From Rahnella sp. AA (GTDB lineage Bacteria; Pseudomonadota; Gammaproteobacteria; Enterobacterales; Enterobacteriaceae), in contig NZ_PITQ01000002.1 in NCBI RefSeq assembly GCF_002834385.1, forward strand, positions 310,001 to 374,000: a DNA stretch of 64,000 nucleotides, written 5' to 3'. Both the position numbers and the translations under genes were made by a program. Shown piece by piece: positions 2,055 to 59,702 of this stretch. The stretch's first letter is position 1. Each line of letters begins with the position of its first letter. The notes beneath the pieces were generated by a model, which saw only the letters and a list, made by a program, of their open reading frames with translations, had not been told where the DNA came from and did no database searches.

Positions 2055-3454
2055 AAAAACTTCTCACCGCCTGCCTGTTAAGTGCGTCCCTGAGCGGTTT
2101 TGCCGCCGCACAGGACAATCAGGCTGAACTCGTCCGTCAGGGCCAGGAAGTCGCGACGGCCGCAGACTGTCAGGCCTGCCATACGGCACCTGAGGGTGGA
2201 AAACCGTTCGCGGGCGGATATGAAATCCATTCGCCGATGGGCACGATTTACACCACCAACATCACGCCGTCGAAGCAGTTTGGTATCGGGAATTACACCG
2301 AAGAACAGTTCACCCGCGCCGTGCGCGAAGGGGTGCGTCCGGACGGTGCAAATCTGTATCCGGCCATGCCTTACACCTCTTACAGCCATATGAGCGATGC
2401 CGATATGCACGCGCTGTATGCGTATTTCCAGCAAGGTGTGAAGCCGGTCGAACAGCCGAATACCGAAACTGCCCTGCCGTTCCCGTTCAACATGCGTATT
2501 GCGATGGCGGGCTGGAATCTGATGTATCTCGACAGCACGCCGTTTAAGCCGGATCCGACCAAAAGTGAGCAATGGAACCGTGGCGCATATCTGGTGAACG
2601 GTGCCGGACACTGCGATACGTGCCATACACCGCGTAACCTGATGATGGGTTCGGTGACGGATAAACCGCTGGCGGGCGGCATGGTCGGCCCGTGGTATGC
2701 GCCGAACATCAGTTCTGACCCGGTCAGCGGGATTGGCAACTGGACGCAGGCTCAGCTGGTGGAATACCTGAAAACTGGCCGGACGGCCGGGAAAAACCAG
2801 GCCGCTGGCGGCATGGCGGAAGCGGTGCAAAACAGCCTGCAATACATGTCTGACACCGATCTGAACGCGATTGCCTTCTACCTGAAAAACAGCACGCCGG
2901 TTCGCGATCCGCGTGATACACAGGCGGCGGACACCTTCGGCAAGCCGGCGAATGTCGAGGAAGGGCTGCGCGGTGCGCATCCGTTTAACTCGAACAAAAC
3001 CATCGACAACGGTGCAGCATTATTCAGCGGATATTGCGCCAGTTGCCATCAGCCGGACGGCTCAGGCAGTAAAAACCAGGCGTATCCGTCGCTGTTTAAC
3101 AACACCGCGACCGGCCTGGGGAATGCATCTAACCTGATTTCCGCCATTCTTTACGGCGTCGATCGTCAGGTGGGCGACCATCATGTTCTGATGCCGAAAT
3201 TTGGCGTGGGTTCGTACGTCGGCCAGCTCGACGACCAGCAGATTGCGGATATTTCCAACTATGTGTTGAAGAACTACGGTAATGCCAGCGTGCAGGTCAG
3301 CGCGCAGGATGTCGCCGTGTTGCGAGCGGGCGGCCCGGTCACCTTGCTGGCGAAGCTGCAACCGCTCATGGCACCTGCAATGGTCATCGGCGTGATCATT
3401 CTGCTGGTGTTAATTTTCTGGCTCGGCAGAAAGCGTAAAGTAAGCAAAGCATAA
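2051..3454 (+). CDS. Triheme cytochrome c subunit of membrane-bound sugar-acid dehydrogenase
   Basis: A 467-residue protein with a Sec signal peptide (cleavage near AAAQ, residue 20), three haem c motifs CQACH (40-44), CDTCH (188-192) and CASCH (329-333), and a C-terminal transmembrane helix at about 437-458 followed by a basic tail. It fits the cytochrome subunit of gluconate/2-ketogluconate/sorbitol dehydrogenases, which anchors the complex and passes electrons to the quinone pool. The ATG at 2051 overlaps the stop of the flavoprotein gene in an ATGA junction. This start puts the signal peptide at the N-terminus; a longer upstream reading is unlikely because it would run inside the flavoprotein gene. 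A strong hairpin terminator follows. Confidence 0.9.
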   Translation: MKKLLTACLLSASLSGFAAAQDNQAELVRQGQEVATAADCQACHTAPEGGKPFAGGYEIHSPMGTIYTTNITPSKQFGIGNYTEEQFTRAVREGVRPDGANLYPAMPYTSYSHMSDADMHALYAYFQQGVKPVEQPNTETALPFPFNMRIAMAGWNLMYLDSTPFKPDPTKSEQWNRGAYLVNGAGHCDTCHTPRNLMMGSVTDKPLAGGMVGPWYAPNISSDPVSGIGNWTQAQLVEYLKTGRTAGKNQAAGGMAEAVQNSLQYMSDTDLNAIAFYLKNSTPVRDPRDTQAADTFGKPANVEEGLRGAHPFNSNKTIDNGAALFSGYCASCHQPDGSGSKNQAYPSLFNNTATGLGNASNLISAILYGVDRQVGDHHVLMPKFGVGSYVGQLDDQQIADISNYVLKNYGNASVQVSAQDVAVLRAGGPVTLLAKLQPLMAPAMVIGVIILLVLIFWLGRKRKVSKA

Positions 3455-3471
3455 TCACGGAAGATGAAATG

Positions 3472-3498
3472 CAAAACGGCCCTATTCGGGCCGTTTTG
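3472..3498 (+). terminator. Rho-independent terminator of the dehydrogenase operon
   Basis: The inverted repeat CAAAACGGCCC / GGGCCGTTTTG with loop TATTC lies 18 bases after the cytochrome stop and ends in TTTTG. The A-rich left flank means it could also serve the convergent idnO gene. Confidence 0.8.
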
Positions 3499-3548
3499 TC
3501 TGCGCTGAATAGCCCTGAGAAAATAGCCGTTCACGCAAATGGAGGCCA

Positions 3549-11626: not shown

Positions 11627-11655
11627 ATTGTCTGCGATTTACCGGGGATGCCGGA

Positions 11656-11780
11656 ATACCCTAAATAATTCAGGTTGCAGGAAGGCGGCAAGTTCGCGAA
11701 TCCCCGGGAGCTTAGATAACTAAGTGACCGGGGTGAACGAGCGCAGCCAACGCGCCTGCGGCCTGAAGTATGACGGGTAT
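11656..11780. repeat. 125-bp structured intergenic repeat, copy 1
   Basis: The termini form an inverted repeat, ATACCC at 11656-11661 and GGGTAT at 11775-11780. The centre holds CCCCGG/CCGGGG (11702-11707, 11728-11733) enclosing CTTAG-ATAA-CTAAG. A second copy lies at 61045-61170, with about 75% visible identity and paired-base changes in the stems. Both copies abut the stop codon of a minus-strand gene. Elements with the phrases GGCGGCAAG and CAGCCAACGC are common between enterobacterial genes; no coding function is seen. Confidence 0.8.
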
Positions 11781-12782
11781 TTATTTGCCCGCTTTACGCT
11801 GTAACTGATCCCGCAGATTCGGCGGAGTGCCTTTAATGGTCAGCGTATCGGTCGCCGGATCCCAGAAAATACGTTCGCCCATTAACATCGCGTCGAAGTT
11901 AATACTCAGGCCACCGCCGCTGCCGGCAAATTTGGTGAGCTGGCGTAATGTGCTGCGATCGGCCGGGAACGTTTCTTCCAGCTGATAACCCTGTTCCTGC
12001 GTGAATTCTTTGAATTTCTTGTCATTCCACGGCGGCAGCTCTTCGGATAAATCATCCAGCGCGATTTCTTCGCCCGCCTGCAACTGCTCATTGCAGTAGG
12101 TATATACCTGCTGACGATAGTTCTGACGCTCGTTTTTATCGAGCTGCGCTTCAGCACAGAAATCATCTACCGCCTGCAACAAACCGCGGTTTTGCGCCTT
12201 GGTATCCAGGCCTTCAGAAGCGCCCAGGAAATCCATGAAGAAGTCAGAAACTTTGCGCCCTACGCGGCCTTTCAGGAAGGTCAGGTAGCGGGAAGATTCC
12301 GGATTGGTTTCCCATTCGGTCAGATCAATACGCGCCACGATATCGGCGTGGTTGATATCAAGATAATGGATGCTGCTGACGTCCAGCTGTTCGTTGACAC
12401 GCATGCTGCTGCGGCTGTTAAGCACGGCAACCAGCAAATATTCCACGGCCAGGAAACGGTAATGACAAAAAAGCACCACGCCGCCTTCTGCGAAGGGATA
12501 TTTGGCCAGCTCATCGCGAAGACGCCCGGTCGCGGCACGGCTGAATGACAGGAAATCATCGTCCCCTTTACGACAACTGCGCAGCGCCGCTGACAGTTCG
12601 CTGTCCTCGTTGAACAGGCCGTACGCTTTGCTTTTGGCGCTGTAAACACGGTGCAGCTCTGCCATCATTTCATCAACGGCGGCATTTGGGGTCAAAAGCG
12701 TATCGCGCAGCACAACATCCAGCGTTTGCTCATCACGTTTGTTCAACTGGTGCAGAGCGATCTGCTCAATATCCAGACTCAT
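11781..12782 (-). CDS. yejK: Nucleoid-associated protein YejK (NdpA)
   Basis: A 333-residue protein of the 37-kDa nucleoid-associated family; E. coli YejK binds DNA and interacts with topoisomerase IV. The family start [13 protein letters not shown] is preserved at ATG 12782, preceded by AGGAG; a longer reading to 12848 would add 22 unsupported residues. Characteristic segments are [16 protein letters not shown] and [16 protein letters not shown]. It is divergent from yejL-yejM, as in E. coli. Confidence 0.95.
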
Positions 12783-23408: not shown

Positions 23409-23459
23409 GCTAATACTGGAGTTTTGTACCTTTTGGAAAGGTGCAAATTTAGGTTTTTC

Positions 23460-23770
23460 ATATGCGGTGATCGCTTAGATCAAAACCTTGGGTTGCCACC
23501 CAAACCGGCAAGACCTTGGGCTCGCCGCCCAAACTGGCCCAAAGGGTTTTAAACGAAACCCTTTGGAATCCTGCGTTTTTTTAACTGCGCGCTGCCGCTT
23601 GCTGGTTATGTTTCAGACACAATAGCTATTGCCGCGAAAACTTGCCGCTGCGCGGTTCCCTTACTCGGTTTCGAGCCATTGGTCTCGAAACACTTCGCTC
23701 GGCAAGCTTTCTGAAAGCGGCCACTGGCTATGTAATTCAGCATGCTTTTTGAAAGCGGCTGGGGGCTTAT
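23460..23770 (+). repeat. Structured dispersed element, pair A left arm
   Basis: A roughly 300-nt non-coding element in sense orientation after the Sel1-like gene. Hairpins in order: TTGGGT/ACCCAA (23488-23503), TTGGGC/GCCCAA (23516-23532), CCAAAGGGTTT/AAACCCTTTGG with loop TAAACG (23539-23566), and GTTTCGAG/CTCGAAAC (23668-23691). Three other copies exist: its inverted partner at 23800-24125 and the pair at 59100-59700. Short frames inside it are not believable genes. Confidence 0.8.
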
Positions 23771-23799
23771 CTAAATTCAACGGTATTTTTAAGTAGCAA

Positions 23800-24125
23800 T
23801 CCGCAGTGAGGTTGCGATTTAGAAAGTCTGTGGCCGCTTTCAAAACGACGTTGAGTGAGAGGTGAGAAACAGCGAAAGTCTTTTCCGAGCAGATTCGAAC
23901 CCGAAGCGAAAGTACCGCGCAGCGGCGGCGTTTGCGGCAATAGCCGAAGTTTCTGGAACATAGCCAGCGAGCGGCAGCGCGCAGTTAAAAAGCGCGGGTG
24001 TCCAGAGGGCGCGCGCGTTAACGCGCCCTTTGGGCCAGTTTGGGCGGCGAGCCCAAGGTTTTGCCAGTCTGGATGGCACCCCAAGGCTTTAACCTGAAAT
24101 TTCAGGCTTTTAAAAGCCGAAAAAA
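23800..24125 (-). repeat. Structured dispersed element, pair A right arm
   Basis: Inverted copy of the preceding element, reading on the minus strand directly after the bapD stop codon. Corresponding hairpins are TTGGGC/GCCCAA (24040-24056) and CCAGAGGGCGCG/CGCGCCCTTTGG (24002-24033), the latter having arms different from the left arm's but still paired. Hairpin 1 and hairpin 4 are degenerate here. Together the two arms fill the 737-base gap between convergent genes. Confidence 0.8.
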
Positions 24126-29022: not shown

Positions 29023-32000
29023 TTAGCTTTGCTGAACGTGCAACCCGTGTTGTACCAGTACGTCTCCCAGCGTATTGGAGGCATCCATTGATGCGTTGTG
29101 GTAAACGTCGAAGGTCAGGCCATCTACCGTGCGTTGCCCGGTTTCGTTCCATGCCCCGTCAGTGCCCATTTGCAGATTCACCAGGCTGCCTTCGCCCCCT
29201 TTGATGATCACCTCATCCGCCGGGTTATCCTTCACGTTCAGCGCCTCATGCAGGTTCAGTGAAATACTGTTGGTGCCGGAAGTGCCCAGATCGAAGATAT
29301 CGATGTGCTCGACTTTCAGCCCCAGCAGCGTCAGGTCCAGATGCTGATTGGTGCCCGCCAGCAGCAGGGTATCGACACCGGTTCCGCCGTCGATTTGTGA
29401 GAAATCGAGCGTATGAACCGAAATCGTGTCATTACCCGCGCCGCCAACCGCCACGCCGTCCGTTGCCGTCAGGTCGATAGTCACGCCGCCAATTGAGAAC
29501 GCAGTATCCGCATGGGAAGTGGTATCGGCCGTCGTGGTGGTCGATGAAGACGAACTGGTATCGGCAGTCACCAGCGGATCGGTCAGCGTACTGGCCGCCG
29601 CGGTGGTGTCATGCGTTGTCGTGCTGCTATCGGTGGTTGAAGAACTGGTATCTGAGGTATGAACCGCCGCCAGCGTGTGGGTATCGTCCACCGCCAGTGA
29701 CTGAACGCTCAGAGCACTGGTGTCCGCAGGTAATGTTGACCCGACCGTCAGCCCGACATGTGCATCAAAACCGTTACCGGCTGCATCGACGGCTTTGAGT
29801 TCAACAACCGCGCCCAGCAATGCCGCCAGTAATCCTGTCAGACCGTAGCTGCTCAGCAATGCGCTGCTGAACTTGACCGTCCACGAACCGTCAGACTGTA
29901 CGGTGCCTGCCAGCGTATTGCCCAGTAAGGTGACGCTGATGAGGCCGCCTTGTGCAATATTGCGGCTGGTACCGCTCAGGGTCAGACCCTGCCCGCCCAG
30001 AATGCCGCCAACAACCCCCAGCGTCAGTCCGAGAAGCGGGTTCAGCGCCGCCAGTGGCAGTGCGTGAGTAATGACCGTCAGCGCGCTGGACGACGTCGCG
30101 ATATTGCCCACCGCATCGGTCACCACAACAGAAACCTGCGTTGAGCTGTCGGCAATGCCTTTCAGCTCTGCCGATGTAAACGGCACGCTCCACACACCGT
30201 TAGTGATGGTCCCGGTATGGGTCACCGTACCCACAGTGACACTGACGGTGCCGTTCAGCAGGTTAGATGTCCCGGTGATGTTGGTATTCACACCCGCTTC
30301 GGCCGCATTCAGATAATGGTCGCCGCCAAACAGCGTGTTGACCACCAGCGTTGGCAAGGTATGCGTCCCCACCGCCGCCGTTGCGCTGCCACTCACCGCA
30401 TGACCGGCGGCGTTGGTAACGGATGCGCCAACATTGAGCGTACCGTCAAGCAGGTTTGAGAGTACCAGCTGCGGAACGGCCACGCTGAAGGTGCCATCCG
30501 CTTTCACCAGCGCCGTCAGAACATTACCGCCGACGTTAATACTGACCGTCGAACCCTGTGCGTTAGTCGTCGTCCCGCTGATGGTTTGCGTGAGCAGCAA
30601 ATCGGCCGCATTCAGCAATCCGTCACCAAACAGGGTATTGAGCGTAATGGTCGGCAGTGACTGAGAGACAATGCTCAGCAATCCGCTGGCGTTAGCCGGG
30701 TTACTCGCTGCATCCGTGAAGCTGGCGTTCACCGTCAATGTGCCATTGATGATGGACGTCAGATCGGTGGTCGGGACGGTCACGCTGAAGACGCCACCGG
30801 TGCCGACCGTCGCTGCATAGCTTTTGCCATTCAGCGTGATCTGTATCTGAGCCCCCACCGCGACGTTGGTGGCAATACCGCTGATGGTCTGGCCGGTCAG
30901 CAGGTCAACCACGTTGAGTACGCCGTCGCCAAAGATTGGGTTCAGAACAATCGATGGCAGGTTGTGAATAATGACGCCAAGACCGACGTTGCTGGTCGCG
31001 GTATTCCCCACCGTATCCGTGACGGTCACGGTGATGCCCAGATTGCCGTCACTGAGCAGTGCGAGCTGAGCTGGCAGCAGTGCGACGGAGAAGGTTCCGT
31101 TACTGCCCACCGTTGCGGTCAGATCAGGCGTCAGCCCCGGAACATGGATAGTGACCGTTTCGCCCAGATACCCGTTGGTGATTGTCCCGCTGATCGCTTG
31201 CGAAGACAGGGCTTCCGTGGCACTCAGAATACCGTCAGGCCCAAAGATTGCGTTGAGCACAATTTTCGGCACGGCGTTGACGATGGACGTCAGCGAGCCA
31301 CTGGTGCTGCCAATGTTTCCGTTGCTGTCAGAAACCGAAACACCGACGGTGAAGGAGCCATCCCCCAGCGCTTTCAGGTCGCCCGGTTGCAGGGTCACGC
31401 TGAATGCACCGGTGCTGTCTGTCGCGCCCAGGAAAGTTTTCCCCCCGAGAGTGACGGTGACCTGCGTCCCGGTCGCCACGCCGCTGACCGTACCGCCAAT
31501 GACCTGCGCCGTCAGCGCGTCCGTCGCGTTGAGCAGGCCATCACCCAGTATTGACGTCAGGGCAACAACCGGCCTGACCAGATCCAGCACGGCGTTGGCC
31601 GTTGCCGTCCCCGGGTTACCCGCAGCATCTGCCACATCCACGCTGACAACGACCGAGGTTCCGGTCAGCGTCGAGAGAATGGCCGGCGATACGTTCACGG
31701 AGAAATGACCGGTGGCATCCACCACGCCATTTACGATCTGACTGCCGATATGCACCACAATCGCCGTGTTCGCTGCCACATTGGAGATGGTACCGCTCAC
31801 CACCTGCGTGCTCAGCAGGTCATTAATATTCAGTACGCCATCACCGAATACGGTGTTGAGCACCACCTGAGGCAGGTTGTGGATAGCGATCCCCACCGGA
31901 ATATTCGTACTGGTGGTGTTCCCCGCCACGTCGGTCAGGGTAATTCCCAGACTCAGATTTCCGTCCGTCAGTAACGCCAAATCTAACGGCTGAATATTGA

Positions 32001-35000
32001 TGTTCCAGGCCCCTGCCGTCACGGTAGTGTTGTATGTTTTACCACCGAGCGTCACGGTCACTGCTGTGCCGTCTACCGCCGTTGCCACCCCGCCAATGGC
32101 CTGAGTAGTCGCTGATTCAAGCGCATTGAGCAGGCTGTTGCCGCCAAAGATAGGGTTCAGCGCACCCAGCACCGGAACCGTTTTGACGACATCAAGGTTT
32201 AGCGTTTCAAGTTTGAAATTGCCTGAGGAGTCGGTGATGGTCAGCTCAATGACCTTAGCCCCGTTCGTCAGCGCGCCGAGAACCGCCGCAGGCACCGTCA
32301 TTGACCACAAGCCGTTAGCACCGACAACCGCAGACAACGGTGTACCGGCAATGGTGGTGGTGATAATGGATCCTACCCCTGCCCCGATGGCTGTCCCGCT
32401 GAGCACCTGCGCCACCTGAGATTCCGCCAGATTAAGGTAGCCGTCGGTCAGCCCCAGACCGCTGGTAAGAGACAGATCCAGCACGTGGTTAAAGAAGATA
32501 TTCAGACCGGTGCTGACACTGGTGGTGTTACCCGCAGCATCCATGACCGTCGCCGCCAGCGTCAGCGTGCCGTCATTGAGCAAACTGAGCTGCCCTGGCG
32601 TCAGGCTAACCGCCCACAGGCCGCCCGGCTGAATGACCGCCGTTGTCAGCGGACTTCCACCGAGCGTCAGGGTCACGGTCTGCCCGTCAGCGCCAGAGGA
32701 TGTCCCGCTCAGTAAGACCGTACCCAGCGCCTGCACCAGATTGAGAACGTTGTTGCCAGCCACCGCATCAATACCCAGCAGCGGTGGTGCGGTATCAACC
32801 GTAATCGGATGCGGCACCGCACTGCCGGTGTTACCCGCCGCATCCGTCAGGGTTGCGGTGATAACGTTGTTTCCGCCTGTCGCGGTCTGCGGTAATGCCT
32901 GCAAATCGGCAGCCGGTACGCTGACCGTCCATACGCCCGTGGTCACATTCGATGTGACAGTGGCGGTATAGGTTTTACCGTTCAGCGTGACGGTGACCAC
33001 ACGGCCCACATCCGACAGGTCTGCCGTACCTGAAATGGCTTGTGCCGATTTTGACTCGGTATTATTCAGGATATCGTCAGTTGCAAAGGCGTTGATGGTG
33101 ACGGTTGGTGCGGTGATATCCACCAGCACCGTTTGTATGGCGCTGGTTACCGGGCTCGACGTTGTCGCGGTAATCGTTGTCGTGAGGCCATCCGTAAACT
33201 CGCTGGCTGCCACACTTAGCGTCCAGACACCCGCAGTGACGGTTGCCGTATGCTGATTTCCTCCGACAAAGACCGTGACGACCGTATTATCCGGAACACT
33301 AATCGTTTTACCGGACACGGTGATATTCACCGGGTTGCCGTCGGCTACGTTAATGATGTTATCGCCGGTCACCGGATCGATGCTCAGCGTTGGCGTAACA
33401 GGAACACTCAGGTTAACCGTAATTGGCGCGCTGGCCGCCGGCGCAGCGTTACCCGCCACATCGGAAACAGAGGCACTGACAGTAGTCGCACCGGCTAATG
33501 TGTTCAGCTCAGCCGAGGTCAGTGTCACACTCCAGGAGCCATCTGCCAGAACCGTGGCGTCATGGCTGATACCGCCCACCGTGACCGTCACTTTCTGCCC
33601 GGCCTCAACGTGGGTTGTCGACCCGGTAATGGTTTGCGGGCTCAGGCTTTCGGTGTAATTCAGGTCAAACCCGGTTCCGGCAAAGGACGTTACGCTGACC
33701 GTCGGCAGCAGGGTTACCGCAATGCCGACGTTAGCCGAGGCCGAGCCGGAGTTACCGCCCGGATCCGTTACCGTGACCACCACGGTCTGAGCGCCCTGCG
33801 CCAGCGTGGCGAGCGCCGCAGAGTCCAGCGACAAGGACCAGTGCCCGGTGCTGTCAACCGTACCGTTGGTAAACGTCTGACCCGCAATCAGGACTGAAAT
33901 AGTTTGCCCTGCGCCAAGGATCCCGGTAGTCCCGGTCAGTGTCTGGGTACTTCCGGCTTCAGTCGCATTCAGATGACCATCAAGGAACGGCGTAACGATT
34001 GTCACGTTTGGCGTCGTCACAAAGCTGGTAAATGGCAGGGTTGTTGGTGTGCTGTTACCCGCCGCATCCGTGACCGTCACATTGATATCATGGGTGCCAT
34101 TGCCCAGCGAATTGAGGACACCGGCAGGCAGAGAGACCGTCCAGGCACCGGTGAGCGGATCAACGGTTCCTGTGTAAATCGTGCCACCGACGTCAATGGT
34201 CAGTTTCACGTTTTGGTTGTTACCGGTGATGCCGGTATTTCCGCTGATCACATTGATACCGGCCGCTTCACTGATACTGAGAATACCGTCACCAAATGGC
34301 TGGCTGATGGTCGGAACCGGCGCAGAAAGGTGTGAGGTAAAGTTCAGCGTTGCATCCGTATGGTTACCGACGGAATCCGTTGCCGTGACGGTAATCAAGT
34401 GAGAGGCCGTAGCCAGCCCCAGCGTTGCCAGTTGAGTTGGGGTCAGGGTCAGGCTCCAGAGCCCGGTGGTCTCATCAACGGTTGCCGTAAACGGACTTCC
34501 GGTCATGCCAGCAATAGCCACACTGACCGTCTGCCCGGCACCGATGACACCGGTTGTCCCCGTAATTGTCTGCCCACCGGTAAGCACTGAAGCTTCCGAA
34601 ATATTCAGCGTTCCATCGCCAAATGGCAAATCGATGGTCGGCGCAGGCAGGGAGTGAATCTGCACCCCGACAGAAACAGGCAGTACCGAACTGTTACCGG
34701 CGCTGTCAGTTACCGTGACCACGACAGGCCAGGTGCCGTCCTGTAAAGCCAGAAGTTCCACCGAGCTGAGCGACACACTCCAGGTACCGGCAGCGGCATT
34801 GACAAGCACCGGTACAGCATTACCGTTAATCACCACCGTTACAGTCTGGCCTGCGCTGGTGATCCCGGTCGTCCCGGTAATCACTTGCCCTGCCAGATCG
34901 GAGGCCTCATCAAAATTCAGCACACCGTCAGTAAACGGCACGTTAATGCCTGCGACAGGCAGAACGTGCGTCAGCGCGGTAAAATCAAGTGAGCCAGCGC

Positions 35001-38000
35001 TGCTGCTGGTGTTCCCTGCGCTGTCGGTTGCCGTCACCGTAATGGTGTGTGACGCATCGGTCAGCCCCTGCAAGACGTTAGCCGGAGCTGTCGCCGTCCA
35101 CACGCCGTCAGGGCCAACGGTTGCCGTCAGCGTCGTATTATCAATTTTCACCGTGACAGTCTGGCCGGCACCGATAATACCGGTTGTCCCGGTGAGAATC
35201 TGAGCAGCCCCTGCCTCTGTGGCATTGAGGATGCCGTTGACAAATGGCGTATTGATGGTCGGTATGCCTGGCTGGGTCAGCTCAACATCCAGGCTCGTAC
35301 TGGACGATGCCGGGTTATGGCCCGCATCAGAAGCCGAGACGCTGACCTGCACCACGCCGGTGGTTAAACCGCTGAGCGCGCCAGGGGCGACTATCACGGT
35401 CCAGCCCAGGCCATCTGAATTCACCGTGCCCGGAATAGGCTGCGCCAGCCCCGGGATAGTGACCAGTACCGTTGTACCGGCCAGCAGCCCGCTGCTGGTC
35501 CCTGTCAGGGTAATGCCGGCCGTCGCTTCCGCGATATTCAGCACGCCGTTGCCTGTAATCGTATCGATAGTCAGCGTTGGCAGAGAATGCGTGGCCAGCG
35601 TGAAGCTTGCCGACCCGTTAACACTATTATTCGCGGCATCGCTGACGCTGACGTTGATGGTTTTGGTGCCATCGGAGGTGACAGCCTGCACATCTGCGCC
35701 AGGGATGGTCAGGTTCCATGCCCCAAAATTGTCCGCAGTGGTCAGATAATCCTTACCGTTAAACGTAACTTTTACCGCCAGGTTCGGATCCGTTGTCCCG
35801 CTGACCGGCACGCCGAGAGCGGCTTCGGCCAGATTGATGATGCCATCACCGCCAGTCGCTACCGTCACGCTCAGCGACGGAGCAAGGGTATCGACAGTGA
35901 CGTTATGGATTGCGGTTGCCGGATTTTGCGCCACATCATTCGCCGTGGCGGTAAAGACGTTATTGCCCGAAGGCATAGCCTGAACCTGCGCAGCCGACAT
36001 CGGGAAGCTCCAGCTACCATCAGCCTGCACTGTGGCGGTAAAGGTCGCCGTATAGTTTTCACCGGTAACCACCACCGTCACAGTCCCGTTTACCGGGACA
36101 TGCGTTGAGGTACCGCTGATGGTCATCCCCTGGTTGTGTTCCAGCGCATTGATTTTATCGTCGCCGGACACCGCATTGATTGTCAGCGTCGGCAGGTCAC
36201 CCGACTGGGCAATGACCGTGACATTGTGCGTTGCCGACGCCGGGTTCTGCGCCAGATCGGTGACCGATGCGGTCACGGTCAGTTGCCCGTCAGACAATCC
36301 CGTGAGCGCTAATGCAGGCACGTACGCCGTCCAGGTACCGTCCGCATTGACGGTAGCAGGGTACGCTGTTCCATTGAAAACGACGGAAACAACCTGATTT
36401 TCTTCGACATGCGTGGTGGTACCGGTGATCGGGACAGAGCTCCCTTTCTCAAGGGCATTGATATAGTCATCTGCCGAAATAGAGGTAATCGTCAGCGTTG
36501 GCAGGTTTGCCGCTGCCGCATCAACGCTGAACGAATGGGTTACCGTCCTCGCGTTACCGGCTGCATCCGTAATGGTCGCAGTGAACGTATAAGTCGTATC
36601 CGTCAGTGACTGAACGACAGAGCTTGGCAGTGTGAAACTCCAGGTGCCATCCGGCTGTACCGTCGCGGTATAGGTTGTGTTGTTGAAATTCAGCACCACA
36701 GAAACCGTCTGCCCCGCATCCGGGATATCTGACGTCCCGCTGATCACTACCGGTTGCAGGGTTTCCGCCGCATTGATGATGTTATCAGTGGCGACCGGGT
36801 CGAAGGTCAGCGTTGGCAGCGTGTAATCGACTGTAATCGCGCTGCTGGTTGTGCCCACGTTGCCGACGCTGTCAGTTGCCGTGACCAGCACCGTTTGCGG
36901 GCCTTCCGGTATGGCCTGCAAATCAGTTGCGCTGATGGTGACCGACCAGACGCCGTTAGCATCCACAGTAGCCGGGTGCGCAACACCACCACCGATACTG
37001 ACCATCACCGTCTGGCCTGCGCCCGTAATGCCCGTTGTCCCGGTCAGAGTCTGGGCGGAATCGGCTTCATCACGGTTGAGGAAAGTATTATCAAACGGCG
37101 TGTTGAGTGACGGCACTGGCGGATGCGCAGCAACAACGGTGTAGGAATGCGTTGTCGTCACCGAGTTACCCGCCTGATCCGTCAGGGTCGCGGTCAGCGT
37201 ATAGCTGCCGTCTGCTACCCCCGTGAGGGCACCGGCAGGTACGTTAACCGTCCAGGATCCGTTGCTCTGCACAAGCGCCTGATAGGTTTCACCGTTAAAT
37301 TGCAACGTGACCGTCTGACCGGCATCAATCTGACCGGCTGAACCGGAGAGCGCGATTACCCCCGCCAGCTCTGGCCCGTTGAGAATATTGTCGCTGGTGA
37401 TATTGGAGATTGAGAGCGTCGGCGGTGTGAAATCAATATTGACCGAACCGTTCGTTACGCCCGTGTTTCCTGCGGCATCCGTCACGGTGACCTGGACAGG
37501 CGTCAGGCCTTCCGTCACACCCGTCAGAGTGCCCGCAGGGACAGTCACCGTCCATGTCCCGTTGGTCGCCACAGTGCCGGTCAGGGTGTGGCCATCGATC
37601 ACCACACTGACCGTCTGACCATCACCGGTTACACCGGTAGTCCCGGTGAGTGTCTGCGCAGCCGCAGCTTCGGCGGTGCCCAACAGCCCGTCGCCAAACG
37701 GCGTGTTGATCGTCGGTACCGGCGCATGGGCATAAATACCAATATCCACCGTACTGGTGACGGTACCCAGATCGGTGCTCACCGTGGTGGCGATCACATG
37801 GCTGGTGCCATCCGCCAGGCGCGCAATATCCCCCTGAGGAACCGTGACACTCCAGTTCCCCAGTGAGTCAGTCGTCGTGATATAGGATTTCCCCCCCAGA
37901 CTGACTGTGACGACACCCGTATTAGGCGGCACATTATGCGTCGAGCCACTGATGATGACATCAGACAGTGCCTCTGAGGCACTGATCTTGTTGTCACCGG

Positions 38001-41000
38001 AGATGGTATCGATAGAAATGCCACCCAGAGTCGCATCTACAGTAATCAGATGTGCGGCGTTTTGCGGGTTCTCCGCCGCATCACTGACGCTGGCCGTAAT
38101 GATATACAGGTTATTGCCCAAGTCCTGCAGATCAGTTGCCGGAACAGAAACACTCCATGCACCACTGGCCTGCACAACGGCGAAGTATTGGTGGCTGCCC
38201 AGCATAACCGTCACTATCTGGCCCGCTTCCACGTGGGTGGTGGTGCCGCTTATCAGCTGTGCTGTCTGCTGTTCCGCACCACTCAGTACATCATCACCGG
38301 CGAAGGTCGTAATACTCAGCGTCGGCAGTAAAGCCGGATCGGCCGCCAGCGTCAGAGGTTCAGTCGCCGTTGTCGTATTACCTGCCGCGTCAGACAGCGT
38401 CGCGGTCAGGGTATACTGACCGTTAGCAATCCCCGACAAGGCATTGGCCGGAATATCTGCGTGCCATGTGCCATCCGGGGCAACAACGCCGGTATAAATA
38501 TGCCCGGCGATGGACACGGTTACCGTACGTCCGGCTTCACTCAGAGACGCAGTACCGGTGACTGACAACAATCCACCGGCCTCAAAGGCGTTCACAATGC
38601 CATCGGCCGTCAGCGGATTCACCGTCAGCGTTGGGGCGACGGTATCAACATTCAGCGGCACCGTAATGTTGCTGGTATTTCCCGCCGCATCGGTGACTGC
38701 AACCTGCACCGTCGTCGGGGTTTGCCCCAGTGACGTCAGCGCAGAGGAAGGTATCGTGACGGAGAATGAGCCATCACCGGCTACCGTCGCGGTATAAGGC
38801 TGCCCGCCCAGTGTCACAATGACCGTCTGCCCGTTGCCAGACACGCCGGTATTCCCGGTCAGTGTCTGTGCGACGGCGGCTTCGGCGGCGTTGAGAATGC
38901 CATCGCCAAACGGTGTATTCAGGGTCGCTGCCGGCAAATTGTGGATGATCACGTTCAGCACATCGCTGCCGCTGACCAGGTTCCCCGCCGTATCTCTGGC
39001 ACTGGCGGTGATCGTGTTCGGGCCGTCGTTTAACGCCGACAGATCCGCAGCGGATACCAGTACACTCCAGCCACCACCCACGCCAACGTTAGCCGTGTAG
39101 GATTTACCGTTGAGGATAATCGTTACCACGCCGTTTACCGGCACGTTAGTTGAAGTACCGGTAATCGTGACACCGGCTGCCGCTTCAAAGGCATTCAGCT
39201 GATTATCACCGGCAACGGTGTTGACCGACAAACCGCTCAGCTGATTGTTTACCGTAATATTTTCACTGTCGCTGGCCGGATTGCCTGCCTTATCAACCAC
39301 AGTGACATTTAACTGCGTCGACCCATTGGCCAGAGCCGTAAGGCTTGCTGACGGAATGCTGGCGCTCCAGCTACCATCAGCCCCCACGGTGGCAATGTAA
39401 GCGATACCATTGAGCGTGATGCTCACTAATTGCCCGGCCTCGACATGCGTCGTGGTGCCACTCACCGTCTGCGAGGTTCTTTGTTCAGCACCATCAAGAA
39501 TGTTGTCACCAGCGAATGCATTCAGTGTGACCGTCGGCGCGTTAGCCGGATCAGCCACCAGCTGGACATTCGATGTCACGGTCGTGCTGTTGCCTGCGGC
39601 ATCAGAAAGCTGGACGGTGACTGGATACTGGCCATCCGCAACGCCCGCCAGCGCCCCTGCGGGCACGGTGATACTCCACTGACCATTGGCCCCCACGATG
39701 CCGACGTAAGTCTGGCCGCTCAGCGTGAGAATAACGTATTGCCCTGCCTCAGCGATCCCCGTCGTGCCGGTCACCACAATATCTGCGGCCGCCTCAGCGC
39801 TGCTGATATACCCGTCGCCACTGACCGGATTGACGGTCAGCGCCGGCGGTGTGAAATCTACCACCACCGTTCCATTGAACGTTCCTGAATTGCCTGAGCT
39901 GTCGGTAGCCTGTACCACAATCGCATTATTGCCTGACGGCAATGCCTGCAAATCAGCCGCCGGGACACTGAGGCTCCAGTTACCATCAGAGGCGACAATA
40001 GCGTTATAGGTATGGCCGCCCAGCGTGACGGTCACTGTCTGACCACTGCCTGTCTTCCCTGTTGAACCAAACAGCGTTTCCGCCGTTGCCGCTTCGGCAA
40101 TGCTCAGCAACCCGTCGCCAAATGGGGTACTCAGGCTTGGAGTCGGGTTAACCGCATCATAACCCACTGAAATACTGTTACTTACTGTCGTACCATCCAT
40201 GGCCTGAACGGTGGCCGTGAATTGCAAAGTCCCCGGCCCCAGGCCAGCCGACTGCAACTCAGCCTGCGTCAGCTGAACCGCCCAGGTGCCATCAGGTTGC
40301 ACTAAAGCCAGACGGATCAGTACACCGAAATGAAGCGTGACCAGTTCAAAAGTCGATACGCCCAGCGTAGTACCGGTAACCAGCACGCCGTCCACGGTTT
40401 CCTGCGCGTTGATGACGTTATCACCGGCGATCGGCGCAATAGAGATACCTTCTTGTGACGAATCCAGGTTAAAGGTATCAGTGGCCGGGTTAGCCACGTT
40501 GCCTGCTTTATCAGAAACCGTCGCGGTAATGGTGTGCTGGCTATCCCCCAGCACAACGATATCCGCAGCAGGAATAATGACACTCCAGTTTCCGTTGGCC
40601 TGCACGGTTGCCGTGTAGGTGAGCCCGTTTAATGAGATGGTCACTATCTGACCCGCCTCAACGCGGCTGGTGGTCCCGCTTAATTGCTGCGCGGTCTGGA
40701 CTTCCGCCCCGTTGATAAAATCGTCTCCGGTAAACGGATTGATGCTGATAAACGGTTGCAGGATCGGATCGGTCGCCAGATGGATGGTGCTGATATTGGT
40801 CGTCTGATTACCTGCCAGGTCAGTCAGGGTCGCAGTGACCGTAACATCCTGATACTGATTGATCAGGGAACCCGCCGGAATAGTGACACTCCAGGTACCG
40901 TTTGGCTGAACCACAGCACCGCTAAAATCGATACCGTCAATATTCACAACCACCGGACGCCCGGCGTCGCTGACCGATGCAGTACCGGTCAGCACCATCG

Positions 41001-42861
41001 CGGCAGACGCCTCACTGACGCTGATGTAACCATCACCCAGCAGCGGATTGACGGTCAGCGTTGGGGCAACGGTGTCCACATTTAAAGATGTTGTTACGCT
41101 GTTATGGTTACCTGCCGGGTCAGTGACCGTCACCGTCACATTGTTAGCGCCCTGCGAGAGATTACCCAGCGCAGAAGTCGGAACCGTCACGGTGAAAGAG
41201 CCATCCGCCGCCACAGTGCCGGTAAGATGCTGCCCTCCCAGGGTGATCGTCACCGTCTGGCCGTCGCCGGTCAGGCCGGTATTACCGGTCAGCGTCTGGC
41301 TGGAGGTGGCCTCATTGGCAGAGAGCGTATTGTCCCCTCCAAACGCCGGATTCAGCGTCGGCGGAACGCCATGTGTGGCAACGTTGAAGGATGAACCCTG
41401 ACTGATCGGGTTGCCCTGCGTATCCACCATGCTGACCGTCACCGACGTTGTGCCGTCGCTGAGGGCCTGCAAGGCAGAAGGTGGAATGCTCAGGCTCCAG
41501 CCACCGCCTGCGGTTGTGTTGGTGTGATAATCCACGCCGCCGATGATCACGGTAATCGGGGTGCCCGTGGCGACATTAGCCGCAAGGCCAGAGATCACCA
41601 GCGCGCTTTGCGCTTCAGTGGCGTTAAGCTGACCATCGCCGGAAATGGCATTAATGGTCAAAATGCCCGCGCTGTCGTTGATCATGAAACTTTCTGGTGT
41701 TGACGTCGTGTTACCCGCTTTATCGCTCAGTGAAGCGGTCAGCGTGTAATCGCCCTCGGCCAGTGCAGAGACGATGGCGGACGGGATCGTGACAGACCAT
41801 GTGCCATCGGCCCCCACGGTAGCGCTGTAATGCACGCCGTTAAGCACGATATCAACGGAACGTCCGGCCTCGGAAGCCGACGCGGTACCACTGATAACCA
41901 GCGGCTGCTGATGTTCATTGGCATCGAGAACGCTATCGCCATCGACCGGATTGACCGTCAGCGTCGGTGGCGTGGTATCGACCACCACGGTGACGCTTTT
42001 GGTGATGCTTTCACCTGCCGTATTGGTCAGGGTGACGGAAATGACATAAGTCCCGTCAGCGAGTGTTTGCAGTTCACTGGCTGAAAGCGGAACACCCCAG
42101 TTCCCGCTGCCGTCAACCGTCGTAGTGAAACTTTTGCCATTGATAGTCAGCACAATGGTGCTACCTGCGGCAGCATTGGTCGTCGTACCGCTGAAGTTTT
42201 GCGTGCTTTCAACTGCGGAGCGGTTGAGGGTGTTATCGCTGGCAAAGGTCGCCAGCGTCAGGGTTGGCGTTTGCCCTTCAGGATTTCCCCCAGGATTTCC
42301 CCCAGGATTACCACCCGGATTTCCCCCAGGATTTCCCCCAGGATTACCACCGGTACCACCGCCGCCATTACTGCTGCTGCCCCCACCACCACCGCCGCCA
42401 CCGCCTGCTGCAATTGCAATACCGGCACCGAGCGCAACTACGCCTAAAATAGTCGCTAAAGCTGCGGTGCTAAAAGTGGAAGAGTCGAGAACCAACGCCC
42501 CGACCTCAGGAATGGTTTCATAAGCGGGAACGATCGGGACCGCAGCCGCCGTCGCGCCGGTATCGATAAATGCGGCATGCTCAATCGGATGCACGCCGTC
42601 ATCGAAAATCAGCTCACTGTCTGTGTCTTTACCGTCTGTATTGAAGAAGCTGTGATAGCGGACAGTGCTGCCATCTTTCATGTGGACAATCAAATCGTTA
42701 CCCACACGTTCATAACTGGTGACGGAATCACGCGCCGCATGGATACGGACGATACTGGCCTGATTGAGGGTGACATTTTGACTGGAATTGGAAACCTGGG
42801 AGATTACCGAACCGTCTTTGCGGGAAAGAATATCAATAACAACGCTACCGTTCTGAGCCAT
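29023..42861 (-). CDS. bapA: Giant BapA-like biofilm adhesin with about 45 Ig-like repeats, type I secreted
   Basis: A 4612-residue repetitive surface protein expected to mediate cell-cell and surface adhesion. Order: a BapA-prefix-like N-terminal domain (1-about 130) with no Sec signal; a hydrophobic helix and Gly tract (131-170); six GGNP repeats (171-194); roughly 45 bacterial Ig-like repeats of about 90 residues, each with a core like SGTT...GQTVTVTLGG...G.WSVTVP...L..L..G...VTVTDAAGN; a Ser/Thr-rich linker (about 4399-4452); and a C-terminal region from 4473 with GGAGNDTISV and IDGGTGVDTLLL, typical of RTX/type I secretion signals. ATG 42861 has AGGGG upstream. BapA of Salmonella (about 3800 residues) is the closest named relative; LapA and SiiE share the plan. 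The reverse-complement frames on the plus strand are shadows of the repeats. Confidence 0.9.
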   Translation of the reverse strand: MAQNGSVVIDILSRKDGSVISQVSNSSQNVTLNQASIVRIHAARDSVTSYERVGNDLIVHMKDGSTVRYHSFFNTDGKDTDSELIFDDGVHPIEHAAFIDTGATAAAVPIVPAYETIPEVGALVLDSSTFSTAALATILGVVALGAGIAIAAGGGGGGGGGSSSNGGGGTGGNPGGNPGGNPGGNPGGNPGGNPEGQTPTLTLATFASDNTLNRSAVESTQNFSGTTTNAAAGSTIVLTINGKSFTTTVDGSGNWGVPLSASELQTLADGTYVISVTLTNTAGESITKSVTVVVDTTPPTLTVNPVDGDSVLDANEHQQPLVISGTASASEAGRSVDIVLNGVHYSATVGADGTWSVTIPSAIVSALAEGDYTLTASLSDKAGNTTSTPESFMINDSAGILTINAISGDGQLNATEAQSALVISGLAANVATGTPITVIIGGVDYHTNTTAGGGWSLSIPPSALQALSDGTTSVTVSMVDTQGNPISQGSSFNVATHGVPPTLNPAFGGDNTLSANEATSSQTLTGNTGLTGDGQTVTITLGGQHLTGTVAADGSFTVTVPTSALGNLSQGANNVTVTVTDPAGNHNSVTTSLNVDTVAPTLTVNPLLGDGYISVSEASAAMVLTGTASVSDAGRPVVVNIDGIDFSGAVVQPNGTWSVTIPAGSLINQYQDVTVTATLTDLAGNQTTNISTIHLATDPILQPFISINPFTGDDFINGAEVQTAQQLSGTTSRVEAGQIVTISLNGLTYTATVQANGNWSVIIPAADIVVLGDSQHTITATVSDKAGNVANPATDTFNLDSSQEGISIAPIAGDNVINAQETVDGVLVTGTTLGVSTFELVTLHFGVLIRLALVQPDGTWAVQLTQAELQSAGLGPGTLQFTATVQAMDGTTVSNSISVGYDAVNPTPSLSTPFGDGLLSIAEAATAETLFGSTGKTGSGQTVTVTLGGHTYNAIVASDGNWSLSVPAADLQALPSGNNAIVVQATDSSGNSGTFNGTVVVDFTPPALTVNPVSGDGYISSAEAAADIVVTGTTGIAEAGQYVILTLSGQTYVGIVGANGQWSITVPAGALAGVADGQYPVTVQLSDAAGNSTTVTSNVQLVADPANAPTVTLNAFAGDNILDGAEQRTSQTVSGTTTHVEAGQLVSITLNGIAYIATVGADGSWSASIPSASLTALANGSTQLNVTVVDKAGNPASDSENITVNNQLSGLSVNTVAGDNQLNAFEAAAGVTITGTSTNVPVNGVVTIILNGKSYTANVGVGGGWSVLVSAADLSALNDGPNTITASARDTAGNLVSGSDVLNVIIHNLPAATLNTPFGDGILNAAEAAVAQTLTGNTGVSGNGQTVIVTLGGQPYTATVAGDGSFSVTIPSSALTSLGQTPTTVQVAVTDAAGNTSNITVPLNVDTVAPTLTVNPLTADGIVNAFEAGGLLSVTGTASLSEAGRTVTVSIAGHIYTGVVAPDGTWHADIPANALSGIANGQYTLTATLSDAAGNTTTATEPLTLAADPALLPTLSITTFAGDDVLSGAEQQTAQLISGTTTHVEAGQIVTVMLGSHQYFAVVQASGAWSVSVPATDLQDLGNNLYIITASVSDAAENPQNAAHLITVDATLGGISIDTISGDNKISASEALSDVIISGSTHNVPPNTGVVTVSLGGKSYITTTDSLGNWSVTVPQGDIARLADGTSHVIATTVSTDLGTVTSTVDIGIYAHAPVPTINTPFGDGLLGTAEAAAAQTLTGTTGVTGDGQTVSVVIDGHTLTGTVATNGTWTVTVPAGTLTGVTEGLTPVQVTVTDAAGNTGVTNGSVNIDFTPPTLSISNITSDNILNGPELAGVIALSGSAGQIDAGQTVTLQFNGETYQALVQSNGSWTVNVPAGALTGVADGSYTLTATLTDQAGNSVTTTHSYTVVAAHPPVPSLNTPFDNTFLNRDEADSAQTLTGTTGITGAGQTVMVSIGGGVAHPATVDANGVWSVTISATDLQAIPEGPQTVLVTATDSVGNVGTTSSAITVDYTLPTLTFDPVATDNIINAAETLQPVVISGTSDIPDAGQTVSVVLNFNNTTYTATVQPDGTWSFTLPSSVVQSLTDTTYTFTATITDAAGNARTVTHSFSVDAAAANLPTLTITSISADDYINALEKGSSVPITGTTTHVEENQVVSVVFNGTAYPATVNADGTWTAYVPALALTGLSDGQLTVTASVTDLAQNPASATHNVTVIAQSGDLPTLTINAVSGDDKINALEHNQGMTISGTSTHVPVNGTVTVVVTGENYTATFTATVQADGSWSFPMSAAQVQAMPSGNNVFTATANDVAQNPATAIHNVTVDTLAPSLSVTVATGGDGIINLAEAALGVPVSGTTDPNLAVKVTFNGKDYLTTADNFGAWNLTIPGADVQAVTSDGTKTINVSVSDAANNSVNGSASFTLATHSLPTLTIDTITGNGVLNIAEATAGITLTGTSSGLLAGTTVLVTIPGLAQPIPGTVNSDGLGWTVIVAPGALSGLTTGVVQVSVSASDAGHNPASSSTSLDVELTQPGIPTINTPFVNGILNATEAGAAQILTGTTGIIGAGQTVTVKIDNTTLTATVGPDGVWTATAPANVLQGLTDASHTITVTATDSAGNTSSSAGSLDFTALTHVLPVAGINVPFTDGVLNFDEASDLAGQVITGTTGITSAGQTVTVVINGNAVPVLVNAAAGTWSVSLSSVELLALQDGTWPVVVTVTDSAGNSSVLPVSVGVQIHSLPAPTIDLPFGDGTLNISEASVLTGGQTITGTTGVIGAGQTVSVAIAGMTGSPFTATVDETTGLWSLTLTPTQLATLGLATASHLITVTATDSVGNHTDATLNFTSHLSAPVPTISQPFGDGILSISEAAGINVISGNTGITGNNQNVKLTIDVGGTIYTGTVDPLTGAWTVSLPAGVLNSLGNGTHDINVTVTDAAGNSTPTTLPFTSFVTTPNVTIVTPFLDGHLNATEAGSTQTLTGTTGILGAGQTISVLIAGQTFTNGTVDSTGHWSLSLDSAALATLAQGAQTVVVTVTDPGGNSGSASANVGIAVTLLPTVSVTSFAGTGFDLNYTESLSPQTITGSTTHVEAGQKVTVTVGGISHDATVLADGSWSVTLTSAELNTLAGATTVSASVSDVAGNAAPAASAPITVNLSVPVTPTLSIDPVTGDNIINVADGNPVNITVSGKTISVPDNTVVTVFVGGNQHTATVTAGVWTLSVAASEFTDGLTTTITATTSSPVTSAIQTVLVDITAPTVTINAFATDDILNNTESKSAQAISGTADLSDVGRVVTVTLNGKTYTATVTSNVTTGVWTVSVPAADLQALPQTATGGNNVITATLTDAAGNTGSAVPHPITVDTAPPLLGIDAVAGNNVLNLVQALGTVLLSGTSSGADGQTVTLTLGGSPLTTAVIQPGGLWAVSLTPGQLSLLNDGTLTLAATVMDAAGNTTSVSTGLNIFFNHVLDLSLTSGLGLTDGYLNLAESQVAQVLSGTAIGAGVGSIITTTIAGTPLSAVVGANGLWSMTVPAAVLGALTNGAKVIELTITDSSGNFKLETLNLDVVKTVPVLGALNPIFGGNSLLNALESATTQAIGGVATAVDGTAVTVTLGGKTYNTTVTAGAWNINIQPLDLALLTDGNLSLGITLTDVAGNTTSTNIPVGIAIHNLPQVVLNTVFGDGVLNINDLLSTQVVSGTISNVAANTAIVVHIGSQIVNGVVDATGHFSVNVSPAILSTLTGTSVVVSVDVADAAGNPGTATANAVLDLVRPVVALTSILGDGLLNATDALTAQVIGGTVSGVATGTQVTVTLGGKTFLGATDSTGAFSVTLQPGDLKALGDGSFTVGVSVSDSNGNIGSTSGSLTSIVNAVPKIVLNAIFGPDGILSATEALSSQAISGTITNGYLGETVTIHVPGLTPDLTATVGSNGTFSVALLPAQLALLSDGNLGITVTVTDTVGNTATSNVGLGVIIHNLPSIVLNPIFGDGVLNVVDLLTGQTISGIATNVAVGAQIQITLNGKSYAATVGTGGVFSVTVPTTDLTSIINGTLTVNASFTDAASNPANASGLLSIVSQSLPTITLNTLFGDGLLNAADLLLTQTISGTTTNAQGSTVSINVGGNVLTALVKADGTFSVAVPQLVLSNLLDGTLNVGASVTNAAGHAVSGSATAAVGTHTLPTLVVNTLFGGDHYLNAAEAGVNTNITGTSNLLNGTVSVTVGTVTHTGTITNGVWSVPFTSAELKGIADSSTQVSVVVTDAVGNIATSSSALTVITHALPLAALNPLLGLTLGVVGGILGGQGLTLSGTSRNIAQGGLISVTLLGNTLAGTVQSDGSWTVKFSSALLSSYGLTGLLAALLGAVVELKAVDAAGNGFDAHVGLTVGSTLPADTSALSVQSLAVDDTHTLAAVHTSDTSSSTTDSSTTTHDTTAAASTLTDPLVTADTSSSSSTTTTADTTSHADTAFSIGGVTIDLTATDGVAVGGAGNDTISVHTLDFSQIDGGTGVDTLLLAGTNQHLDLTLLGLKVEHIDIFDLGTSGTNSISLNLHEALNVKDNPADEVIIKGGEGSLVNLQMGTDGAWNETGQRTVDGLTFDVYHNASMDASNTLGDVLVQHGLHVQQS
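42280..42351 (-). repeat. 12-bp tandem repeat coding (GGNP)6 in the adhesin
   Basis: Six in-frame 12-base units encode GGNP at residues 171-194, differing only at silent positions. The unit length is a multiple of three, so copy-number change would lengthen or shorten the linker without a frameshift. Confidence 0.9.
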
Positions 42862-59057: not shown

Positions 59058-59099
59058 CGGGCTGCTGCCCGTACCCGCTGTTGAGATTGGCTTCCGGTT

Positions 59100-59345
59100 T
59101 AAATTCTAAATCAAAATCAAGGTCGTGGGCATCGGCCCACACCGACCAGAGGGAGAATAAACCTTCTCCCTCTGGACTCCCGCGTTTTTTCACTGCGCGC
59201 TGTCGCTGGGCCGATGGACATGTTCCGAGGCTTGGGCGCGTGGCGCAAAACCCTGCCGCTGCGCGGTGCCTTCTCTCGGTGCTGGAGCCTTGGGTCTCCA
59301 GCCCGCTTCGTTCAGCAGGATTTTTGAGTGCGCCATCTCACCATT
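59100..59345 (+). repeat. Structured dispersed element, pair B left arm
   Basis: Diverged copy of the element at 23460-23770, sense orientation after yfaE. Hairpins: GTGGGC/GCCCAC (59125-59140) inside GGTC/GACC, CCAGAGGGAGAA/TTCTCCCTCTGG with loop TAAACC (59146-59175), and GCTGGAG/CTCCAGC (59281-59302). Each differs from pair A yet pairs perfectly. Confidence 0.75.
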
Positions 59346-59394
59346 TAAAAAAACAGTTTTGCCTTGCTTAACGAGCGATATATCTAGCTTTCAA

Positions 59395-59700
59395 GTGGTT
59401 GAAAAAAGATGGCGAGGTTGTGAACTACATAGGCAGTGGCCGCTTTCAGAAAGCTTGCTGAATGAGTGTTTCGAGACCGAAAGGCTCGAAGACCGAATTG
59501 AAGGTACCGCGCAGCGGCAAGTTTTCGCGGCACTAGCAGGAATTACTGAAACATAGTCAGCGAGCGGCAGCGCGGAGTTAAAAAGCGCGGGTGTCCAGAG
59601 GGCGCGCGCGTTAACGCGCCCTTTGGGCCAGTTTGGGCGGCGAGCCCAAGGTTTTGCCAGTTTGGGTGGCAACCCAAGGTCTTGACCTTAGCTTTTCAAA
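59395..59700 (-). repeat. Structured dispersed element, pair B right arm
   Basis: Inverted copy on the minus strand, starting two bases after the stop of the CinA-like gene. Hairpins TTGGGT/ACCCAA (59662-59677), TTGGGC/GCCCAA (59633-59649), CCAGAGGGCGCG/CGCGCCCTTTGG (59595-59626) and TTCGAG/CTCGAA (59470-59490). The part 59575-59660 is nearly identical to 23990-24065. Confidence 0.8.
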
Positions 59701-59702
59701 AG

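Follow-up and report, generated by a model that had tools for sequence, protein, structure and literature searches.

What fills certain gaps between convergent genes of Rahnella sp. AA: an RNA element made at the ends of the neighboring genes, or a repeat that spreads as DNA? In the window, by which we mean the whole 64,000-nucleotide stretch analyzed here, an earlier note had described two such gaps as each filled by two inverted arms of about 300 nt, and we located both structures, which we term elements A and B. The four arms do share one polarity, as the note had stated, and the hairpins that it quoted are all present in the sequence. Element A opens with arm 1 (about 23448 to 23786, + strand), a class i arm in sense with the preceding gene. 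A terminator-like hairpin after this DUF4034/Sel1 gene (23423 to 23447, +), recognized from a terminator scan and the gene domains, lies upstream of the arm and outside the repeat. The sequence of arm 1 contains two outer TTGGG..CCCAA hairpins (23488 to 23532, +) and the main hairpin CCAAAGGGTTT/AAACCCTTTGG (23539 to 23566, +). These are followed by a putative third strand (AATCCTGCG) with a T-run (23567 to 23582, +), assigned from sequence and a family test, and by a three-way-junction core (23629 to 23723, +; fold z of -3.6 on the + strand and -3.5 on the - strand). This third strand is a weak example, being among the weaker mirror matches of the family. Arm 2 (about 23781 to 24125, - strand) belongs to class ii and adjoins an HlyD-like secretion gene. 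Its core (23830 to 23938, -) was detected at 54 bits by the covariance model R1 introduced below, and neither strand of this core folds better than shuffles (z of +1.2 and +2.0). The main hairpin of arm 2 (24002 to 24033), its putative third strand (23992 to 24001), and a T-run together span 23987 to 24033 (-).

Element B follows a 2Fe-2S ferredoxin-like gene. Its arm 1 (about 59086 to 59385, +) represents a second sub-type of class i and carries the main hairpin CCAGAGGGAGAA/TTCTCCCTCTGG, the putative third strand ACTCCCGCG, and a T-run at 59146 to 59190 (+), with the core at 59240 to 59336 (+; fold z of -2.0 on the + strand and -4.4 on the - strand). Arm 2 (about 59386 to 59710, -), also of class i, adjoins a gene with a MoCF_biosynth domain and contains a core at 59437 to 59533 (-; fold z of -1.6 on the - strand and -4.4 on the + strand), a main hairpin at 59595 to 59626 (-), and a putative third strand at 59585 to 59594 (-). 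The resemblances exceed chance: the right arms of elements A and B are 90% identical over 172 nt, and another place in the genome has an arm that shares 96% identity with arm 1 of element A. The outer ends of arms vary by extra copies of a module of about 42 nt. Apart from the two elements, the window holds a very long repeat tract in multiples of about 300 nt (29500 to 42400), near an HlyD-type secretion gene and apparently encoding a giant repeat protein, which includes an array of the 12-nt GGATTTCCCCCA at 42269 to 42363. We also observed a 130-nt direct repeat, 79% alike, with its copies 49 kb apart (11654 to 11783 and 61044 to 61173).

The family extends far beyond the four copies that had been counted in the window. 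With R1, a covariance model of the arm core built from 77 distinct class i cores among 177 arms, we found at least 88 clear arms at no fewer than 47 places in the Rahnella sp. AA genome, a lower bound in that 150 of 2,387 first-look candidates were scored; R1 gave 90 matches, of which the two weakest, overlapping and at 27 to 28 bits, were set aside. A DNA search of the genome with the element gave at least 136 matches with 40 of 65 candidates scored. Of the 47 places, 41 hold a pair of arms and 6 a lone arm. The pairs, without exception, are arranged head to head, with arms pointing inward and cores spaced by 49 to 260 nt, or by 852 nt in one case. A PemK-like toxin gene lies between the arms of this widely spaced pair (L042, 1860 to 3244), and at L074 (3789 to 4640), also an element-bearing gap, an arm has HigB and HTH genes next to it. 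Each of the 14 genus members searched had R1 matches, 8 to 114 per genome, which are lower bounds with at most 150 candidates scored in each. All 11 plasmid records matched by the element were from Rahnella, and a search for a phage origin returned no match.

The class i core folds into P1 (GCCGC/GCGGC), P2, a small hairpin P3, a two-pair P5, and a hairpin P4, a longer-range structure that the earlier note had not described and that also pairs with changed sequence. Over 77 distinct rows, 91.4% of cells pair (83.5% when shuffled), a count lowered by about nine rows that are misaligned in P4. Both sides had changed in 18 of 30 pairs, and both-sided changed cells numbered 162 versus 46.1 ± 4.4 in shuffles, so that the covariation expected from additional copies was found in this core. 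As a control, sliding the partners by 1 to 3 columns gave 2 to 5 pairs and 8 to 52 cells, and further pair types were not above shuffles (29 versus 28.0). Almost no covariation was seen within class ii (1 both-sided pair, 35 of 37 sequences used) or within class iii (0 both-sided pairs, 30 of 31 sequences used); support for the fold in these classes comes from P2, which differs between classes. In wobble counts bearing on the strand of action, mismatches in the class i core of Rahnella were 97 A.C and 41 G.T in the sense strand, and those in P2 of other genera were reversed (22 G.T and 8 A.C), with some cells of both tallies coming from misaligned rows. The permutation tests here and below are inflated by the relatedness of the copies. 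We conclude that the elements form a structured non-coding family whose fold is kept through sequence change.

The main hairpin also changes its sequence while keeping its pairing, as had been claimed from the window: 47 distinct 3′ strands occurred among 166 hairpins parsed from the 177 arms. The segment after the hairpin, which precedes the T-run where one is present, mirrors the 3′ strand at a fixed register with an offset of +2, the layout of a parallel third strand in an intrastrand triplex. Over the 47 distinct Rahnella hairpins, we counted 271 mirror matches versus 196.1 ± 8.5 when permuted (0/5,000), with third-strand positions 2 to 4 matching in 44 of 46 each. When hairpins were merged into 11 clusters more than 3 edits apart, matches numbered 47 of 55 versus 28.8 ± 3.2 (0/5,000). 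The best offset in other genera was also +2, and 17 distinct hairpins from these genera gave 56 of 85 matches versus 45.0 ± 3.3 (3/5,000). We rejected antiparallel pairing of the post-hairpin strand, which was weaker at its best offset (187 versus 151.5 ± 7.2) than the mirror relation. The hairpin strand and the segment in mirror register with it thus constitute, in the broad sense, a candidate intrastrand triplex motif.

These observations bear on whether the arms could be neutral DNA palindromes, in which compensatory changes would stem from template-switch (quasipalindrome) correction and from recombination among copies, the fold itself being unselected. Template-switch correction is an established mechanism for bacterial inverted repeats, and mosaic arms, exchanges, and deletions inside hairpins are what such processes would leave. 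Correction acts on inverted repeats, however, and leaves a mirror-related third strand unexplained, as it does the recurrence of the same junction with different sequences across genera. We consider this account quite improbable.

The arms had also been described as the 3′ ends of convergent genes. This placement held for 29 of 41 pairs; of the rest, 11 occupied tandem gaps and a single pair a divergent one. Background gaps of at least 30 nt were convergent in 20 of 137 cases and those of at least 100 nt in 7 of 101, taken from 13 stretches of 20 kb that we picked; gap types throughout came from a simple home-made gene caller, which may err and overlooked the small ferredoxin gene that precedes element B. 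All 6 single arms were in sense behind a gene, 4 of them in convergent gaps, where either orientation is in sense behind a gene. In tandem gaps between two + strand genes, cores were closer to the end of the upstream gene than to the start of the downstream gene in 8 of 9 cases. Plasmid copies occupied a divergent gap in Rahnella HX2 and a tandem gap in R. sikkimica, for which the gene tables are incomplete. The placement of copies relative to gene ends is not random.

Such placement, together with the core covariation, is what would be expected if the arms were transcribed as a 3′-UTR RNA element whose fold stabilizes or terminates transcripts arriving from either side of a convergent pair, which was the first interpretation offered for this locus. 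The E. coli relatives described below add to its support, with the arm in sense behind the upstream gene in four of five contexts. Of that interpretation, structure and a position mostly behind gene ends stood. Our scan for intrinsic terminators (GC-rich stem and a T-run within 0 to 2 nt), however, did not list the main hairpins of either element; with a T-run that begins at least 9 nt past the stem in these arms, they do not qualify as standard terminators. The T-run itself was absent from the Enterobacter and Pantoea relatives inspected. The three class i cores of the window reach lower folding energy on the opposite strand, tandem and divergent copies exist, neither the E. coli proX copy nor the Rahnella HX2 plasmid copy is in sense behind a gene, and several sites are empty in sister species. 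We therefore regard a 3′-UTR RNA element as an unlikely explanation of the family; a DNA-level palindromic element, which the earlier note had named as the alternative, fits the turnover of copies better.

Turnover was evident when we traced four flank pairs (sites L040, L061, L054, and L059) in 13 relatives. The gap at L040 was long in 9 relatives and shorter in G012, G006, G005, and G009, and that at L061 was long in 6 and short in 6, with no length class assigned to G002. At L054, 2 relatives had a long gap, G004 an intermediate one, and 2 a short one, with the flanks on different contigs or far apart in 8; the left flank of L059 was found only in the Rahnella sp. AA genome itself (G000) and in G010. 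Reading 20 of the traced sites revealed two arms in 7, no arm in 8, small outer fragments only in 2, an internally deleted element in 1 (G004), and a remnant of outer module plus hairpin in 2 (both G009). The flanks of some elements are separate in other species, as far as contig joins in draft assemblies allow, which is expected if copies recombine. A different repeat, rich in GC (CTCCTCCCCCTGCGAAGGGGGAGG and related sequences), is found at the centers of two elements and also in the same gaps of species that lack arms (loci L074, about 3400 to 3520; L125; and L120, L123, L127, L135, and L136).

Arms were also replaced individually. In 16 comparisons at 13 orthologous sites of our choosing, the flanks were 85 to 97% alike and 12 of 32 arms were at most 0.76 identical, with others reaching 0.99 to 1.0. 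The gap of element A in G010, for example, keeps arm 2 and has a different arm 1, with HigB and HTH genes adjoining. Among 630 pairs of 36 elements of the Rahnella sp. AA genome, 7 were at least 0.80 alike in both arms (2.1 expected under random assortment of arms, with 7 reached in 2 of 200 runs), 85 had one arm alone in common, and 538 had none. Both arms of a copy at another place in G010 resemble those of element A (0.85 and 0.95; 90% over most of the element). Since resemblances of both arms and of single arms are found, elements seem to be copied whole and also to exchange arms.

An element of the MITE type, mobilized in one piece by a transposase that recognizes its inverted ends, would have inverted arms, many copies, and presence or absence at sites, and the elements that are alike in both arms agree with such movement. 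The greater frequency of single-arm than of both-arm sharing argues against it, as does an average identity of only about 62% between the two arms of one element. The variation of outer ends by module copies also speaks against it, and comparison of full and empty sites at 3 loci, where flanks were too diverged to define a target-site duplication, revealed none. We find unitary movement of this kind highly unlikely.

Partner arms were less alike than random pairing would give. Partners were 0.607 identical versus 0.655 ± 0.011 when arms were re-paired (0/5,000), and partners were less alike than re-paired arms in four of four genomes (36, 14, 11, and 9 pairs, with values as low reached in 0/5,000, 0/5,000, about 0.4%, and 0.2% of permutations, respectively). 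Across genomes with at least three pairs, identity above 0.70 was seen in 4 of 82 partner pairs versus 30.6 expected; in a count of 84 pairs, none exceeded 0.75. As judged by model score, 34 of 41 pairs were heterotypic, combining a class i arm with one of class ii or iii, versus 20.5 expected (0/10,000).

A blastn search with the element matched 0 of 25 genomes of other genera. We nevertheless rejected a family restricted to the genus, since R1 finds arms in a metagenome-assembled genome (MAG) of another genus and a 19-base core pattern finds other Enterobacterales. Run over 394 genomes of the order with stricter filters and the best 10 candidates per genome, R1 matched 6 genomes in 4 of 114 genera, 2 of the 6 being of Rahnella; the MAG (G296), from another genus of Enterobacterales, contained 71 arms by R1. 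The 19-base pattern occurred in 36 stretches of named genomes, mostly Enterobacterales and including Pantoea, Enterobacter, Pectobacterium, Ewingella, Lelliottia, and Erwinia, with three stretches from non-enteric records that look like chance. Because R1 is strong only on the MAG and Ewingella, the other relatives rest on layout, and the same layout with other sequences was seen in Pantoea, Enterobacter, Pectobacterium, Dickeya, and E. coli. Inverted arms were present in P. agglomerans, Lelliottia, Erwinia, Ewingella, and the MAG and were not seen in most Enterobacter or Pectobacterium loci. A 14-base pattern occurred 3 to 40 times in 7 genomes of other genera, versus 0 to 1 for a reversed control. 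Pairing in other genera showed a small excess by a loose exact-match score (5.8 versus 5.0, 61 rows) and exceeded its control in a position-restricted test of 23 distinct upstream sequences against a segment at a set distance (5.28 versus 4.22 ± 0.21, 0/2,000), in which the P. agglomerans and Tatumella sequences do not pair (scores of 3.0 to 3.5). This test and the GGA counts given below leave out four Ewingella loci (L190, L222, L229, and L236), one of P. agglomerans (L243), that of the MAG (L160), and the three non-enteric ones (L169, L177, and L195).

In E. coli, an Enterobacter arm matched 5,375 of 5,426 genomes at a median of 3 places. The copies that we read lie in asmA-yegH, mmuM-tauA, yohP-dusC, and aqpZ-lysO and beside proX, and by eye they keep P1 and P2 with changed letters. 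Folding energies of the two strands of the mmuM-tauA core are -75.1 and -84.8 kcal/mol, versus -55.9 and -63.0 kcal/mol when shuffled. The asmA-yegH copy is truncated in ET12567 and identical in an MG1655 record. The gap with this copy was matched in 5,164 of 5,426 E. coli genomes, and in 3,797 of them the match covered 80% or more of the gap. Such wide retention is expected of an old or functional feature and counts against the reading that we favor below.

The hairpins of other genera carry a further sequence feature. In 28 non-redundant arms of 73, GGA lies in the loop or closing pair on the antisense strand of 38 of 54 hairpins (2.7 in shuffles) and on the sense strand of 2 of 54. P4 hairpins of these genera (for example, L217, L271, and L220) have varied stems with TCC loops in sense and resemble CsrA sites, for which the consensus is quoted in PMC5694010. 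In 87 non-redundant Rahnella arms, antisense GGA was found in 1 of 291 hairpins (12.6 in shuffles) and sense GGA in 18 (6.1 in shuffles), and we rejected CsrA-type binding as an explanation of the Rahnella element on the basis of the antisense count.

As had been supposed from the window, the elements match no named RNA family: Rfam returned 0 hits in the window at gathering score and none for six relatives at E ≤ 0.1. Weak sub-threshold hits were obtained for relatives, two of them to naRNA4 in the same E. coli gaps. The closest likeness is to the PIT/TMECO repeats, which PMC4666352 links as intrastrand triplex repeats to genome instability; they too combine an intergenic hairpin with a third strand, vary between strains, and lie at unstable sites. 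TMECO is a pyrimidine-purine-purine motif of about 37 nt with one consensus (PMC4666352), whereas the Rahnella element is purine-pyrimidine-pyrimidine and variable in sequence, with a co-varying third strand and a three-way junction after it. The PIT/TMECO pattern CCCTCNCCC N3-6 GGGNGAGGG N3 GGGNGAGGG had 0 matches in the window. In Enterobacter, each of the 10 distinct arms whose upstream sequence was long enough had a TMECO motif or near match 130 to 131 nt upstream of the core. Such a motif was also found upstream in 1 of 3 E. coli arms; the Silvania arm, the Lelliottia arm, and the 39 arms from other genera had none (TMECO-bearing loci: L171, L173, L174, L178, L183, L186, L217, L221, L235, L242, and L248).

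Among 40 E. coli matches listed, 13 covered exactly 152 query positions. Judging by size, the E. coli copies of the fold may be RSA repeats, which we take to be 152 bp long. Both are dispersed enterobacterial intergenic repeats. These E. coli RSA (BEE95) repeats are named in the title of Bachellier & Hofnung 1996, and they are not known to have been described with double arms or a fold.

The family also resembles REP/BIME elements and REPINs, which consist of inverted units in many intergenic copies and stand mostly behind genes, and ERIC and YPAL, which are enterobacterial palindromic intergenic repeats. REP/BIME and REPIN units are 20 to 40 bp long and moved by RAYT transposases, and ERIC and YPAL measure 127 bp and about 168 bp, respectively (PMC2267715). 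In contrast to REP/BIME elements and REPINs, the Rahnella arms are about 300 nt long, and their genome had 0 matches to Y1_Tnp (RAYT) in a search that was positive in 5 of 14 control genomes. Against an E. coli collection, in which ERIC occurs, the element gave no match at E ≤ 0.001. No REP-transposase gene and no ERIC-like E. coli match, which would have spoken against the reading of the earlier note, were found, although E. coli does have relatives of the fold. A literature search judged by titles and abstracts, with subscription papers mostly outside its reach, yielded no description of the element.

These results establish an element family that is real, structured, mobile-looking, and wide in range. 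We favor, at an even chance of being correct, its interpretation as a non-autonomous dispersed repeat that is conserved in the form of its folded single strand and whose copies are tolerated behind genes. Besides the wide retention in E. coli, points against this reading are the lack of matches to Y1_Tnp, the transposase searched for as a mobilizer, the lack of a definable target-site duplication, the near absence of covariation within classes ii and iii, and the class ii core of the window, which folds no better than shuffles. Each element would be one copy of this non-coding repeat, with two arms head to head. The conserved form would be the folded single strand, possibly as the substrate or recognition form of a process that copies elements or replaces arms; candidates for this process are a trans-acting enzyme or template switching with recombination between copies. 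Perfect palindromes may be removed, leaving only dissimilar partners, which is our suggested explanation for the avoidance of likeness. The position behind genes would mainly reflect tolerance, with copies that hit promoters being lost, and transcript 3′ ends would be affected, if at all, as a by-product.

A broader proposal, which we offer as speculative and rather doubtful in its entirety, is that the arm represents an order-wide nucleic-acid domain of Enterobacterales, a triple-helix hairpin joined to a three-way junction, that persists by element copying and single-arm exchange under a requirement that partners differ and that was amplified head to head in Rahnella. It would then be the first bacterial repeat with three-strand covariation supporting a triple helix, "first" meaning that our literature search, with most subscription papers beyond it, found none. 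The enterobacterial intergenic repeats known so far are short palindromes with disputed roles, and the published triplex repeat of E. coli and Enterobacter, TMECO, is linked here to a constant position next to a larger element. A larger fold kept across several genera despite extensive sequence change, third strand included, would make its chemistry directly testable. The avoidance of likeness between partner arms would also make the family a natural resource for studying how long inverted repeats are tolerated in cells.
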